Assembly (NCBI GenBank): GCA_024275315.1
Contig: JAJRZK010000003.1
Span: 1-64,000, forward strand
From: Nitrospirota bacterium
Lineage (GTDB): Bacteria; Nitrospinota_A; UBA7883
Reading direction: 5' to 3'
DNA length: 64,000 bases
Part shown: positions 6,478 to 40,497 of the stretch, piece by piece
How the letters are laid out: each line of letters opens with the position of its first letter
Numbering within the stretch: the stretch's first letter is position 1
Position numbers and translations under genes: made by a program
The notes under the pieces: model-generated
Databases searched by the model: none
Seen by the model: only the letters and a program-made list of their open reading frames with translations
What the model was told of the DNA's origin: nothing

Positions 6478-7718
6478 CGGTTATTTGCGGCTCCAGTTTT
6501 AATCCAGGCTATGGCGGCGCTGATTACTACTGCTGTGTCGGTCAGGCACTTTACTACAGCGGCTCCGTCTAGCCCATATAAAGGTATCAATACCAGGTTC
6601 ATTGTAACATTCAGGGGAAGCGCCCACGCCACAATGATCGCCGCGGTCCTGAATTTACCGTCTATGATAAGAGCGTACACCAATCCATGTCGTATGAATA
6701 TGACGCAAGCGGCGGCCCCGAGCCATAACAACGGACCAGAGGATGGACTGAACCTCTCTCCAAACAAGGCCGACACTATCTCCGGGGCGAAAAAAGCGAT
6801 CGATCCTCCAACCATTATTCCCGACACAGCAAGAAGACCAAGCGCCACGTTCATCCACTTGCGAAAGTCGGGATAGCGGCTTTCGGCCTTACCTGAAAGA
6901 GTTGGAAACGCTGACGCCATGAGCAATGTGGGGATGGCGAGAACCCCATCCAGTATCTTTACTCCCGCGCTGTACCACCCTATCTCTTGCAATGACAGCC
7001 CCAAAAATGGCGCCATGGCCACGTCGGCCCTGTAGTAGGCGATTGTAAAAAACGTTATCGCCGCCAGAGGCGCCGATTTTTTCAGAAGACCCTTCCATAC
7101 GACTATGTCCAGGCGGGGAGAAAGGGACACCCCCTTGCCGGCGGTCCACGTCAGCGCCCACACGGTCATCGCCACCTGCGAGCAAGTCATCACTATCAAC
7201 GTTGTTTCCAGACCCGCCCCCAGCCATAACGCCGCTATGGCGCAACCTGTGACAGATATTTTGCTGACTCCCACAAGTAGCGTCTCCATCTGCATCCGCT
7301 CCATGGACTGGAATATGGCGGAAGCGTATTCTGTCAGCGCAAATCCGGCCATCTGGATCCCCATAAGCGCCAGCAACCCTATCATCATGTGATCATAGCC
7401 GGCTATAACGCCATAGATGGCCGTAAAGACTACTGTGAATACCGTTAGCACAAGCTTGAGCCCAAGTATGGCTCCCGCCGATTCGTGAAGGAAATCCGGG
7501 TGTCGGGGAGTTTGGCGGATAAGTAGCGTGTTCAGCCCCGGGTCCACAAGAAAAACGACCACCGCCGTGACCGAATAGAGCAGGCTGAATATCCCGAACG
7601 CCTCCTCGCCAAGCCACCTGGCCAGCGCAACATAGAAAACAAAAGACAGAGTGCGCCCGATTAACTCTGTCAGAGTTTTGAAGACAAGGTTTTTACCAAT
7701 CCTTCGGACAGGCGCCAT
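6474..7718 (-). CDS. Polysaccharide flippase (Wzx/MATE-like)
   Basis: A 414-residue polytopic membrane protein of about 12 hydrophobic segments. It begins with the GRTLSFVFYVALARWLGEEAFG block that is typical of oligosaccharide flippases of the MOP superfamily. The family moves undecaprenyl-linked oligosaccharides across the inner membrane. It sits 13 bases after the GT2 gene and overlaps the methyltransferase, so its assignment is supported by context. No polymerase (Wzy) is visible in the operon. Confidence 0.85.
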   Translation of the reverse strand: MAPVRRIGKNLVFKTLTELIGRTLSFVFYVALARWLGEEAFGIFSLLYSVTAVVVFLVDPGLNTLLIRQTPRHPDFLHESAGAILGLKLVLTVFTVVFTAIYGVIAGYDHMMIGLLALMGIQMAGFALTEYASAIFQSMERMQMETLLVGVSKISVTGCAIAALWLGAGLETTLIVMTCSQVAMTVWALTWTAGKGVSLSPRLDIVVWKGLLKKSAPLAAITFFTIAYYRADVAMAPFLGLSLQEIGWYSAGVKILDGVLAIPTLLMASAFPTLSGKAESRYPDFRKWMNVALGLLAVSGIMVGGSIAFFAPEIVSALFGERFSPSSGPLLWLGAAACVIFIRHGLVYALIIDGKFRTAAIIVAWALPLNVTMNLVLIPLYGLDGAAVVKCLTDTAVVISAAIAWIKTGAANNR

Positions 7719-7731
7719 CCGCCCCGCGCCT

Positions 7732-8682
7732 TTATTCGAGAACGTTTCTGACTACGTAAGTCGGCTTGTCCTGGGACTCGTGGTATGTCCTTGACAGCAT
7801 CTCCGCCAGAAGGCCGATCGATATAAACTGCACACCGATGAAAATCAGCAACACCGCCAGCGACAACGCCGGACGGTTCGCAAGCGGCACTTCCATAAAC
7901 AGCTTTTGAACCGACAACCACAAAGCCAGGAAAAACCCCAGCGTTCCGCTGACAACCCCGATCAGGCCGAATATCTGTATGGGGCTGGCCGAATAGCTGA
8001 GCAGGAATTTTACAGTTATAAGGTCAAGCAACACACGAATCGTGCGTCCCATCCCATACTTGGAAACACCTGCGACCCTGGGCCTGTGGTTTACCTTTAT
8101 TTCTGTGACCTTTACGCCCATCCATGACGCCACCGCCGGAATGAACCGGTGCATCTCGCCGTAGAGCCGTATGTTTTTCACCACGTCCCTGCGAAAAACC
8201 TTCAGAGAACACCCATAATCGTGCAGATACACCTTTGTTGTCCATGAAATAATCTTGTTCGCCACCATGGAGGGAAGCCGGCGGGAAAGAAACTTGTCCT
8301 TACGATCATACCGCCATCCTGCGACAATATCGTAACCCTTATCGAGTTTTTCAATCATCGCCGGTATGTCCGCCGGATCATTCTGCAAGTCCGCGTCGAT
8401 GGTTATTATGATCTTGCCTCTGGCGTATTTAAAGCCGGCGGAAAAGGCGGCCGTCTGGCCGAAGTTTCCCCTGAACCGCACTACCCGCAACCGGTTGTCC
8501 TTTTTTCGCAGCATTTCCAGTTTTTCATAGGAGGTGTCTGTGGATCCGTCGTCGATGGCTATTATCTCGAATCCGCCGCTGATTTTTTCCAGCACCCGGG
8601 TTACTTCGGAAATGAATCTTTCCACATTTTCCGCTTCGTTATAAATCGGAGCTACGAGAGAAATCCTTGGATCTTTAATCAT
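7732..8682 (-). CDS. Glycosyltransferase family 2, polyprenyl-phosphate sugar type
   Basis: A 316-residue GT-A enzyme resembling dolichyl-phosphate mannose synthase and ArnC/GtrB. The N-terminal SLVAPIYNEAENVERF is followed by IIAIDDGSTDTSYEKL and ITIDADLQNDPADIP (DAD catalytic metal motif). There is a YGCSLKVFRRDVV acceptor region and two C-terminal membrane segments from about residue 230. It probably loads a sugar onto undecaprenyl phosphate. It is the first gene of the minus-strand polysaccharide operon, with a promoter candidate just upstream, back to back with the tRNA-Leu promoter. Confidence 0.9.
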   Translation of the reverse strand: MIKDPRISLVAPIYNEAENVERFISEVTRVLEKISGGFEIIAIDDGSTDTSYEKLEMLRKKDNRLRVVRFRGNFGQTAAFSAGFKYARGKIIITIDADLQNDPADIPAMIEKLDKGYDIVAGWRYDRKDKFLSRRLPSMVANKIISWTTKVYLHDYGCSLKVFRRDVVKNIRLYGEMHRFIPAVASWMGVKVTEIKVNHRPRVAGVSKYGMGRTIRVLLDLITVKFLLSYSASPIQIFGLIGVVSGTLGFFLALWLSVQKLFMEVPLANRPALSLAVLLIFIGVQFISIGLLAEMLSRTYHESQDKPTYVVRNVLE

Positions 8683-19072: not shown

Positions 19073-19489
19073 CTACCTGGTTTGATCTATACTGGAGCTA
19101 ATCATTTTCCCCCGCTTCTTCAGCGCAGAGATCACCGTCCGGTACATGATTTCATTCTGGGTCATTTTTGCCACTTCACTGTCTAGATTGACGTTGTTTC
19201 CGTCTATCCTGCCCGGCTCGGTGGAATGGACAATTTCCGGTTGAAAACTTTTCAGGCTCGAACCCGCTTTTAAATGCATCGCGTTCGTGACGCTCATTGC
19301 ACCACCTGGCCTGTAGGCGTCTTTCAGCGCCTTTTCGAACGGTTTCATCTCCAACGCTTTATAGCCGGGGGTTTCGGCGTTTGCGATGTTGCTGTTGATA
19401 AGAAGGGCTTTTTTGGAATATATATCCATTGCCTTAACGGCGAGTTTTCCTGTTTTGTTCGTATACAAAATATCGTTTATCAGTCCCAT
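19073..19489 (-). CDS. flgB: Flagellar proximal rod protein FlgB
   Basis: A 138-residue protein with the rod-protein N-terminal motif LLINSNIANAETPGYKA and the C-terminal heptad NVNLDSEVAKMTQNEIMYRTVISAL, both typical of FlgB. It forms the proximal rod in the periplasm. The gene is led by a sigma-54 promoter about 45 bases upstream, which fits middle-class flagellar gene control by a FleQ/FlrC-type activator. Confidence 0.95.
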   Translation of the reverse strand: MGLINDILYTNKTGKLAVKAMDIYSKKALLINSNIANAETPGYKALEMKPFEKALKDAYRPGGAMSVTNAMHLKAGSSLKSFQPEIVHSTEPGRIDGNNVNLDSEVAKMTQNEIMYRTVISALKKRGKMISSSIDQTR

Positions 19490-31230: not shown

Positions 31231-31983
31231 ATGGATATCGGAACTATAGTTGGTCTACTGATAGGCATAGGTCTGTTGGGTTCGGCCATGTCGATGGGGC
31301 AAGGCGGCATTGGGTCTTTTATCGACGTGCCCAGCGTTCTGGTGGTTTTCGGCGGCACCACGGCAGGCACTCTGATAATGTTTCCGCTAAACGCTGTTTT
31401 GGCCAGTTTCAACATCGCGATGAAAACTTTCATCCACAAACCACAGCCATCATCGGAAATTATAGCCAAGATGATCTCCATGGCGACTATTGTCCGAAAA
31501 GATGGTTTGCTCGCCCTGGAAAAACAAAAAGTGGAAGACGGCTTTTTAAGCAAGGCGATCCGTCTTCTTGTAGATGGCATCGACCATAACACGATCAGGG
31601 CCATGCTGGAAAACGAGATCAAATCCATCCAGGACCGCCATTACGACGGCTCCCAGATTTTTGAGCAGATAGGGGCGCTGGCGCCGGCTTTCGGTATGAT
31701 CGGTACGCTCATAGGCCTTGTGCAAATGCTCCAATCGCTGTCAGATCCATCGGCGATCGGACCGGCCATGGCTGTGGCGCTTACCACTACACTTTATGGC
31801 GCCCTCATCGGCAACCTGTTCGCTATACCATTCGCCAAAAAACTTTCAATACGAAGCAAGGAAGAGACATCTCTGAAGGAACTTATAATTGAAGGCGTGG
31901 TTTCCATCTCGAAGAAGGAAAATCCGAACCTGATGAAAGCCAAACTGAACGCGTTCCTGTCGCCCAAGGTACAGGTCAAGTAA
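31231..31983 (+). CDS. motA: Flagellar stator protein MotA
   Basis: A 250-residue MotA/PomA with four membrane segments. The first is IGTIVGLLIGIGLLG; the last two surround PAFGMIGTLIGLVQML and MAVALTTTLYGALIGNLFAIPFA, which hold the conserved prolines that line the ion channel. A cytoplasmic loop carries the rotor-facing charged residues. It forms the stator around the rotor with MotB. It is followed by two motB genes. Confidence 0.95.
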   Translation: MDIGTIVGLLIGIGLLGSAMSMGQGGIGSFIDVPSVLVVFGGTTAGTLIMFPLNAVLASFNIAMKTFIHKPQPSSEIIAKMISMATIVRKDGLLALEKQKVEDGFLSKAIRLLVDGIDHNTIRAMLENEIKSIQDRHYDGSQIFEQIGALAPAFGMIGTLIGLVQMLQSLSDPSAIGPAMAVALTTTLYGALIGNLFAIPFAKKLSIRSKEETSLKELIIEGVVSISKKENPNLMKAKLNAFLSPKVQVK

Positions 31984-32007: not shown

Positions 32008-32730
32008 ATGGCCAGTAAACCACCGAAGTTCGAAGGCGCTCCGATGTGGATCGTCACCTTCGCCGACCTTTCCACGCTCATGCTCACATTTTTTGTCCTG
32101 CTCCTTTCGTTTTCCAACCAGGACATTATAAAATTTCGCGAAATGCTCGGCTCTGTCCAAGGCGCTTTCGGTGTGGAAATCCGCCGCGAAGGAGAGTTCA
32201 AGGGAACACTTACCGGAGAAGGCACAGAAACGGAAAAAGAAGAGAAGGAAAAGCAGGAAAAGGCAAAACTCAAACGGCAACTTGTACAGGTCACAAACCA
32301 GATAAAAAAAGCCGCCAAAGAGGCCAACATGTCTGATAACACTGAAATAACATCCACCCCCGACGGCGTGCTTGTCAGGGTCAAGGGAGAGGCCCTTTTC
32401 AACTCGGGGGCAACCAGGATCAACAGTTCCGCAGTCAAACTGCTGAAAGAATTGGCTTCCATATTAAAAAGCACCGGGTTCTTTCTTACTGTCGAAGGGC
32501 ATACCGATAACGTGCCGTTAAGACCGGGGGCCAACTCCCTGTACAAATCCAACTGGGAATTGTCCGGAGTGCGGGCGGCGGTGGTTGTGCGCTATTTGAG
32601 AACCAGGATGGTTGATAAATCCCAGCTTGCGGCTGCGGGATACGCCGATATGCGGCCGGTGGCCTCCAACGACACCGCCGAAGGCAGGGCCAGAAACCGT
32701 CGGGTGGAGTTTCTTATCAAGAAACCATGA
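32008..32730 (+). CDS. motB: Flagellar stator protein MotB, copy 1
   Basis: A 240-residue MotB. The membrane segment WIVTFADLSTLMLTFFVLLLSF contains the ion-binding Asp (ADLSTLM). An acidic, coiled linker leads to the OmpA-type peptidoglycan-binding domain (VEGHTDNVPL ... AAAGYADMRPVASN ... NRRVEFLI). It anchors the stator to the cell wall. It starts 24 bases after motA. Confidence 0.95.
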   Translation: MASKPPKFEGAPMWIVTFADLSTLMLTFFVLLLSFSNQDIIKFREMLGSVQGAFGVEIRREGEFKGTLTGEGTETEKEEKEKQEKAKLKRQLVQVTNQIKKAAKEANMSDNTEITSTPDGVLVRVKGEALFNSGATRINSSAVKLLKELASILKSTGFFLTVEGHTDNVPLRPGANSLYKSNWELSGVRAAVVVRYLRTRMVDKSQLAAAGYADMRPVASNDTAEGRARNRRVEFLIKKP

Positions 32731-32784
32731 AAACAATACAGAAAAAAAACAATCCCACGCTTGCCCGGGCTGATTCAGACGCGT

Positions 32785-33696
32785 ATGGCCACCATTAGAA
32801 AAGTTTCCATACCATGCCCCCATTGCTCTGTCCGGGCGAAAGCGCCTGTGGACAAAGTCACCGCCAAAGGCCTGAAATACAACTGTCCGAACTGCAAAAC
32901 CACCATTATCGCCACCAAGACTGAAAAAGGCATTTCCGTCCGGCGCGCCAAAGCCGATGAACTGGAGAAAAGTGAGGAGCCCACCGCGAAAAAAGAAAAG
33001 AAACAGCTTGTCGTTCAAGGCGCTCCAATGTGGATCGTCACCTTCGCCGACCTGGCGACACTGCTTCTTACGTTTTTTGTTCTGATGCTTTCTTTCGCCA
33101 ACATGGATATCGTCAAATTCCAGGATTTGATGGGTTCTGTCCGGGAAAGATACGGCGTGACCATGCTCGAACGAGGTGACTTCCAGGCGGTGTCTGAGGG
33201 ACGTCTGGAGGAGGTCGACAGCAACGTCAAGCAATCCTCGGAAATGGTCGCTCGCGAAAAGCTTGTCAACGTTATTTATGATTCGGTTATCCGTGCGGGG
33301 TTCAAGGGGTCCACCTCGATTACATCCACAGACGAGGGTGTGCGGGTCCGTGTGAAAGGCAGGGCCTTGTTCAAACCGGGGCAGGCGACCCTTGTGCCTT
33401 CCAGCGAAAAGTTCATTGACGAAATCTCAAACGTGATAAAGACCACCAAGAACCTTTATATGGTTGTCGAGGGGCACACGGACAACAGGCCTATCCGTAC
33501 CAAGAAATTTCCGTCCAACTGGGAGTTGTCGGTTCTCCGGGCTTCGGCGGTTCTTGAAAAACTGCTGGACAAAGACGTGCCCCCAAAAAAGATTTCCGCG
33601 GCGGGTTACGCGGACGCCAGGCCTCTTTTTTCAAATGATCGGGAAGAAACACGACCACTTAACCGAAGAGTAGAATTCTTGTTCAAAAGAGGATGA
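32785..33696 (+). CDS. motB: MotB copy 2 with N-terminal zinc ribbon
   Basis: A 303-residue protein from ATG 32785; a TTG at 32761 would add eight residues. The cytoplasmic N-terminus holds CPHC and CPNC (C11, C14, C34, C37), a CxxC-x19-CxxC zinc ribbon of the MJ0042 type. After a charged linker come the MotB membrane segment WIVTFADLATLLLTFFVLML with the conserved Asp, and the OmpA-like peptidoglycan-binding domain (VVEGHTDNRPIRTK ... NRRVEFLF). The zinc ribbon is not part of ordinary MotB. It could act as a rotor- or regulator-contact module; that is inference. The two MotBs could make a heteromeric stator or give alternative stators with a single MotA. Confidence 0.88.
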   Translation: MATIRKVSIPCPHCSVRAKAPVDKVTAKGLKYNCPNCKTTIIATKTEKGISVRRAKADELEKSEEPTAKKEKKQLVVQGAPMWIVTFADLATLLLTFFVLMLSFANMDIVKFQDLMGSVRERYGVTMLERGDFQAVSEGRLEEVDSNVKQSSEMVAREKLVNVIYDSVIRAGFKGSTSITSTDEGVRVRVKGRALFKPGQATLVPSSEKFIDEISNVIKTTKNLYMVVEGHTDNRPIRTKKFPSNWELSVLRASAVLEKLLDKDVPPKKISAAGYADARPLFSNDREETRPLNRRVEFLFKRG

Positions 33697-33701
33697 CAGC
33701 C

Positions 33702-35841
<2,140 letters not shown>

Positions 35842-40158: not shown

Positions 40159-40473
40159 TCATTTGCCCTGCTTGATGATATCTTCGATTATCTTGCCAGC
40201 GATCTTATCACCACTTACATGATATTCGCCCTTGGCTATACTTTCTTTGATCGCCTGGATTTTCTCTTTTCGCACATCCGGCGTATCATGAACGGCAGAC
40301 TTGATCTTGCCGATTTCCCTGGCCATACCAGACACCGCCACTGTTTCTGACGACCGCACCTGAGAGGCGCCATCCCCGGATTTACCGCTCTTTACGGGCG
40401 CAGAGCGCTCCCGGCTCCTTAGCTCGTCTATTTTCGCTTGGTTATAGGCGTTGTCAGCTCCAAATATCTTCAT
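40159..40473 (-). CDS. flgM: Anti-sigma-28 factor FlgM
   Basis: From ATG 40473 the product is about 104 residues and has GGAGG eight bases before the ATG; a GTG at 40482 is an alternative. It has the FlgM pattern: a basic, disordered N-terminal half and a C-terminal sigma-binding helix region (VRKEKIQAIKESIAKGEYHVSGDKIAGKIIEDII). It holds sigma-28 inactive until the hook is complete and is then exported. The gene is isolated, convergent with the M16 gene and has a hairpin leader and a sigma-28-like promoter, so it may be fed back by sigma-28. Confidence 0.88.
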   Translation of the reverse strand: MKIFGADNAYNQAKIDELRSRERSAPVKSGKSGDGASQVRSSETVAVSGMAREIGKIKSAVHDTPDVRKEKIQAIKESIAKGEYHVSGDKIAGKIIEDIIKQGK

Positions 40474-40497
40474 CCTTATCACCTCCCAGTGATCCTG

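Follow-up and report, generated by a model that had tools for sequence, protein, structure and literature searches.

What might a zinc ribbon be doing on the B subunit of a flagellar stator, and why should that subunit be the second of two that appear to share a single MotA? These questions are raised by a locus in a 64,000-nucleotide stretch of a Nitrospirota bacterium genome (contig JAJRZK010000003.1, positions 1 to 64,000), here called the window. Control of stators is known to work through rotor load, peptidoglycan, plug release and regulators such as YcgR, MotI and FliL. A conserved cytoplasmic docking domain in a B subunit would, if true, be a further stator control point.

One MotA gene followed by two MotB genes

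All genes of the set lie on the + strand. The first, motA (31231–31983), encodes a MotA/PomA-type stator A subunit of 250 aa (Pfam MotA_ExbB, 7e-30). It is followed by motB1 (32008–32730), encoding an ordinary B subunit of 240 aa (MotB_plug 7e-15, OmpA 3e-16), and by motB2 (32785–33696), encoding the ribbon-bearing B subunit of 303 aa from its ATG (MotB_plug 3e-15, OmpA 2e-18), which was further identified through its orthologues and a tree. For motB2 the ATG at 32785 was preferred over a TTG at 32761; homology sets in a few residues after the ATG. A first-pass annotation had placed one MotA and two MotBs within 32008–33696; both motB genes are there, but motA is just outside. Its count of one MotA to two MotBs holds for this locus and not for the genome, where two more MotA/MotB sets (C10, C17) were found.

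Both MotBs have the features of a B subunit, namely a single transmembrane segment, a channel Asp, a plug and a C-terminal OmpA-like peptidoglycan-binding domain, as had been annotated for the Asp and the OmpA-like domain; MotB_plug and OmpA scored above the Pfam curated cut-offs in each. The channel Asp is D20 in MotB1 (codon 32065–32067) and D89 in MotB2 (codon 33049–33051). The transmembrane and plug segment of MotB2, supported by its identity to that of MotB1, spans 33025–33162, and its OmpA-like domain 33367–33666 (Pfam OmpA 1.7e-18, residues 194–293 of a 302-aa query).

A lipoprotein gene (33693–34505, lipobox-like LTFTGC) adjoins motB2 at its 3′ end; it starts either at 33693, with a 4-base overlap of the motB2 stop, or at 33702. 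Further downstream are eno, a short ftsB-like gene, rpsO and pnp, all named by eye. Scanning upstream of motA, motB1 and motB2, here and in related loci, gave no convincing sigma-28 promoter relative to shuffled sequences. Also named by eye in the window, both on the − strand and away from any flagellar cluster, were a FlgB-like rod gene (19073–19489) and a FlgM-like anti-sigma gene (40159–40482).

A PomA-type MotA probably shared by two B subunits

The best NCBIfam match of MotA was PomA (4.8e-81, though under that model's cut-off), and its best PDB match, hence closest solved relative, was Vibrio PomA (8brd, 6e-60). The Na+ triad of PomA (T158, T185 and T186) aligns with T159, T186 and T187, and is likewise present in both other MotAs of the genome. 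Most of the FliG-contact residues are kept as well: R88, K89, E96 and D114 of PomA correspond to R89, K90, E97 and D115, while R232 is replaced by N233, leaving four of the five. The roles of these threonines and contact residues have been described for PomA (PMC10374538). We infer from the alignment that the stator is probably coupled to Na+ and that the MotA/MotB1/MotB2 set probably acts on the flagellar rotor. All eight genomes found to encode MotB2 (below) are flagellated, based on FliG in seven and FliM in G003. Vibrio, by contrast, has one B subunit only, PomB, which is not known to carry a ribbon.

Comparison of the two B subunits bears on whether they use the same MotA. In the eight genomes, the transmembrane and plug segment of MotB2 was 65–76% identical to that of MotB1 from the same genome, while their C-terminal domains were only 38–50% identical; the same MotB2 segment was about a third identical to those of the MotBs from the two other stator sets. 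Because MotB1 and MotB2 are alike in the transmembrane and plug segment, and far less so in the C-terminal part, they are likely to pair with the same MotA. They are old, separate clades that appear to share one PomA-type MotA. Stators containing MotB2 would then be either homodimers or MotB1/MotB2 heterodimers with respect to their B subunits.

One MotA with two MotBs is already known, and the first-pass annotation had noted that duplicate stator sets occur. In the parts of the Aquifex aeolicus report consulted here (PMC4525482), a single motA is followed by two tandem motB genes (motA-motB1-motB2), the stator is Na+-driven, and the two MotBs have similar transmembrane regions and divergent periplasmic domains, as at our locus. 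Those parts report no ribbon, whereas here there is both a ribbon and a companion lipoprotein; and unlike the Aquifex tandem they describe, motB2 here often forms with the lipoprotein gene a unit separate from motA-motB1.

The N-terminus of MotB2 is a conserved zinc ribbon

Some 80 residues of MotB2, opening with MATIRKVSIPCPHCSVRAKAPVDKVTAKGLKYNCPNCKTT, precede its transmembrane segment. They include C11-x2-C14-x19-C34-x2-C37 (CPHC-x19-CPNC, the Cys codons spanning 32815–32895), which is exactly the CxxC-x19-CxxC annotated at first pass. We mapped the ribbon to 32797–32946 using profiles, an AF2 model and Foldseek; the poorly conserved alignment columns after it mark a charged, variable linker (32947–33024) that leads to the transmembrane segment.

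MotB2 orthologues bearing the ribbon were found in G001, G003, G008, G009 and G010. The four Cys and their x19 spacing are invariant in all six proteins, which come from four families and are as little as 52% identical, and each of the four Cys codons switches synonymously between TGC and TGT among species. This combination of invariance with synonymous codon differences argues that the ribbon is not due to chance, and a fortuitous CxxC pair was ruled out by conservation of the Cys and their spacing. In the six-way alignment, the invariant positions (numbered without Met) are P9, C10, P11, C13, P20, G28, C33, P34, C36, K37 and T38. Unlike this core the linker is variable, and the distance from the last ribbon Cys to the channel Asp is 47–54 residues across the six species.

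Two profiles, Zn_ribbon_4 (best 1e-6) and TIGR02098 MJ0042_CXXC (best 1e-5), matched all six N-termini; the ribbon of the window's own MotB2, taken alone, scored under the curated cut-offs of both. Its AF2 model had a pLDDT of about 80 over the core, and the top PDB match of that model by Foldseek was the ZitP zinc finger (2nb9; probability 1.00, rmsd 1.8 over 41 columns, E 0.066). The ribbon profile gave a weak match (E 0.07) to the GltJ/AgmX ribbon (7zok). Stator B subunits have cytoplasmic N-termini, which the MotA ring surrounds. The N-terminus of MotB2 is thus, by profile, conservation and predicted fold, a real and conserved MJ0042-type predicted zinc ribbon at the cytoplasmic end of the protein, and it probably binds Zn2+. 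The first-pass annotation had asked for a domain search here and for conservation of the cysteines among homologues, and both came out in favor of its ribbon.

We also asked whether the ribbon is of the PopZ-binding type. Four positions after the last ribbon Cys, these proteins have Ile or Leu, like AgmX; the equivalent residue of ZitP is Trp35, which contacts PopZ and on which PopZ binding depends. This replacement makes PopZ-type binding unlikely, and we rejected that assignment.

Distribution and history of MotB1 and MotB2

MotB2 was found in 8 of 24 genomes of the phylum, so the second MotB expected in close relatives is present. The ribbon is absent from two of the eight orthologues (G012 and G018) and is therefore lineage-specific. 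In a MotB tree built from the transmembrane segment onward, with the ribbon excluded, the eight MotB1s and eight MotB2s formed separate groups, the MotB1 of the window falling in one clade with its seven orthologues; the duplication therefore predates the split of these families. Within the MotB2 group, the six with ribbons separated from the two without (support 99/98), for which the simplest history would be that the ribbon was gained once or lost once. In G012 the MotB2 gene (L070:85-882, G012:C12) contains an in-frame TAG downstream of the plug region; the adjoining lipoprotein gene is intact.

The ribbon profile, run on 385 genomes, and the full profile, run on 199 genomes of two additional phyla, yielded no ribbon-MotB beyond the six. 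Among the genomes searched ribbon-MotB is limited to one order; its rarity elsewhere holds for this sample of about 580 genomes. The next-best ribbon matches with translated loci were other proteins and not MotB. One of the candidates, L090, fits a crude MotB pattern, but its single transmembrane segment is far downstream and its context is different. No paper joining MotB, stator and "zinc ribbon" was found in the literature searched, in which a ribbon on the B subunit of a one-to-two stator set thus appears to be undescribed. Its closest known parallels are the Aquifex one-to-two stator and the ribbons of ZitP and GltJ. The first-pass annotation had called a zinc ribbon on MotB unusual.

Across the phylum we noted a protein of ~245 aa with an N-terminal MJ0042-like ribbon and a body that is response-regulator-like by appearance (L104:6871-7602, L105:4291-5028, L106:13201-13935); in G003 and G009 its gene is directly upstream of a pilC/gspF-like gene. 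The MotB2 ribbon may have come from this protein.

A lipoprotein is the constant companion of MotB2

The order motA, motB1, motB2, lipoprotein gene runs together in the window's genome, G001 and G003. In four others (G008, G010, G012 and G018) a motB2-lipoprotein pair lies on the strand opposite motA-motB1; G009 has the two pairs on different contigs. With the lipoprotein profile, every one of the eight genomes encoding MotB2 gave a match, at E 1.6e-82 or better, and the 16 other genomes of the phylum gave none; a random draw would take the same 8 from 24 with odds of 1 in 735,471, kinship ignored. From the co-occurrence and the gene arrangements, the lipoprotein and not motA is the fixed partner of MotB2, a subunit that lacks a dedicated motA gene. 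In place of a fixed motA-motB-motB operon, motB2 and the lipoprotein gene form the constant unit.

The lipoprotein begins with a TPR-like helical region, and its core gave a weak match to T2SSG (pseudopilin-like) in four of the eight members. Searched against the PDB, its AF2 model (pLDDT 68) had no significant fold match, none being below E 0.7, and neither Pfam, NCBIfam nor the PDB fold search named it as one of the Vibrio proteins MotX, MotY or FlgT. Its tail has three short similar motifs, echoed in the orthologues, that are perhaps binding motifs.

A possible docking role for the ribbon

What the ribbon does is best approached through ribbons of the same class. In Caulobacter, ZitP carries its ribbon at its N-terminus, where it binds polar PopZ; Cys mutants lose that localization and motility, and the motility defect of zitP is suppressed by a fliG mutation (PMC5182065, PMC5182063). 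ZitP, which crosses the membrane once and affects motility, resembles MotB2 in the fold of its ribbon and in the place of that ribbon at the cytoplasmic N-terminus; unlike MotB2, it is not a MotB. For Myxococcus, a list of MglA effectors names GltJ next to the MotA homologue AglR (PMC12288465). That system likewise combines a ribbon on a membrane protein with a MotAB-like motor, AglRQS, that has two MotB-like subunits; there, however, the ribbon is on GltJ instead of a MotB-like subunit, and the motor drives gliding and not a flagellum. Because such ribbons at cytoplasmic N-termini are protein-docking modules in ZitP and GltJ, we favor docking for MotB2 also.

Our preferred reading, to which we give somewhat better than even confidence, is an auxiliary sodium-type stator in which MotB2 is an alternative B subunit, the ribbon a cytosolic docking module and the lipoprotein a periplasmic helper. 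One MotA ring would be served by either B subunit, MotB1 being the ordinary one. The MotB2 ribbon, on a flexible linker of roughly 50 residues, would sit near the rotor, on the side of the MotA ring that faces it, and dock a cytosolic positioning or regulatory protein; in the periplasm MotB2 would work with the lipoprotein that accompanies it. Any stator that includes MotB2, whether as a homodimer or paired with MotB1, would in this way be brought in or licensed at a given place or moment. Sequence comparison supports the stator identity, the ribbon with its conservation, the lipoprotein linkage and the likeness of MotB1 and MotB2 in the part facing MotA; the docking role and its partner are proposed by analogy. 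Against this reading stand the two MotB2 orthologues missing the ribbon, and the location of the genes among housekeeping genes with no sigma-28 promoter found. The regulatory or adaptor module of the first-pass annotation fits the roles of the ZitP and GltJ/AgmX ribbons and fits less well with the two ribbon-less orthologues; by this analogy the adaptor idea is plausible, and better founded now. The analogy suggests that stators may be recruitable or controllable from inside the cell through the MotB2 ribbon.

The ribbon might instead be a folding or stability cap, or a local zinc or redox switch, of MotB2 with no external docking partner. Small four-Cys ribbons are often structural. In addition, ZitP behaves differently in its Zn-bound and unbound states (PMC5182063). 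We consider this unlikely, since MotB1 and the ribbon-less MotB2 orthologues manage without a ribbon, and since positions other than Cys are also invariant, the KT that follows the final Cys among them.

A second alternative concerns the whole set, which could be a non-flagellar 5:2 motor, either for Agl-like surface motility or as an envelope energizer. Its location outside flagellar clusters and beside eno, rpsO and pnp would suit such a motor, as would the presence of MglA/MglB, a separate stator set beside fliL/fliM in the same genome, and the AglRQS/GltJ-like combination of one MotA-like and two MotB-like subunits with a ribbon. Yet of the five PomA rotor-contact residues compared, MotA retains four; the B subunits each have a MotB plug and an OmpA domain and not the ExbD/TolR form; and every sampled genome with MotB2 is flagellated. 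A non-flagellar motor is therefore improbable in our judgment. That the ribbon fusion is an annotation accident or a functionless neutral relic, as its restriction to a single order of the searched genomes might suggest, is very improbable and already largely contradicted by six intact orthologues in four families, silent changes at invariant Cys codons and a ribbon core better conserved than the linker.

Returning to the docking reading, the leading candidate partner by analogy is the MglA/MglB polarity GTPase system. MglB-type roadblock proteins were found in 17 of the 24 phylum genomes, including all six with the ribbon and neither of the two with a ribbon-less MotB2. This co-occurrence is suggestive only: MglB is also common in phylum genomes without MotB2, and the six-versus-two contrast may reflect a single evolutionary event. 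In a bolder form of the proposal, which we hold to be a long shot, the ribbon would be a cytosolic address tag binding MglA/MglB or another polar hub, such that position inside the cell, and not only peptidoglycan and rotor load, determines the placement or activation of a dedicated MotA5-MotB1/MotB2 stator with its lipoprotein. In the window's genome and in G009, an MglA-like GTPase gene lies between two roadblock genes. These MglB-like/MglA-like/roadblock clusters (L129:3729-5860, G000:C23; L130:3520-5722) encode an MglA-like protein with a C-terminal extension that has a SurA-N-like match.

Other stator sets

If two B subunits compete for or co-occupy one MotA ring, the question of MotB heterodimers, which has been raised for AglQ/AglS (PMC9389320), becomes testable in a flagellar stator. 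Another set in these genomes, adjoining fliL/fliM, also has one MotA and two MotB-like proteins, the first of which is without the channel Asp (KMNVTLMMILLAFF vs TFGDLLSLLITFF). We found it at L072:5572-7821, L107:2843-5152, L110, L131:2423-4668 and L132:3288-5565; the pairing of an Asp-less with an Asp-bearing MotB is kept in the window's genome, G003, G009, G012 and G018, and may represent a heterodimeric stator. An Asp-less MotB was also seen in another phylum (L019). In the window's genome, the Asp-bearing MotB of this set (L072 about 7078-7821, G000:C10) has an in-frame TAA just after the plug; its frame is intact in G003 and G009. A third MotA/MotB set lies beside a PilZ-like gene (L073:6091-7984, G000:C17; L109:5957-7874) and is also present in G007, a genome without the MotB2 set.
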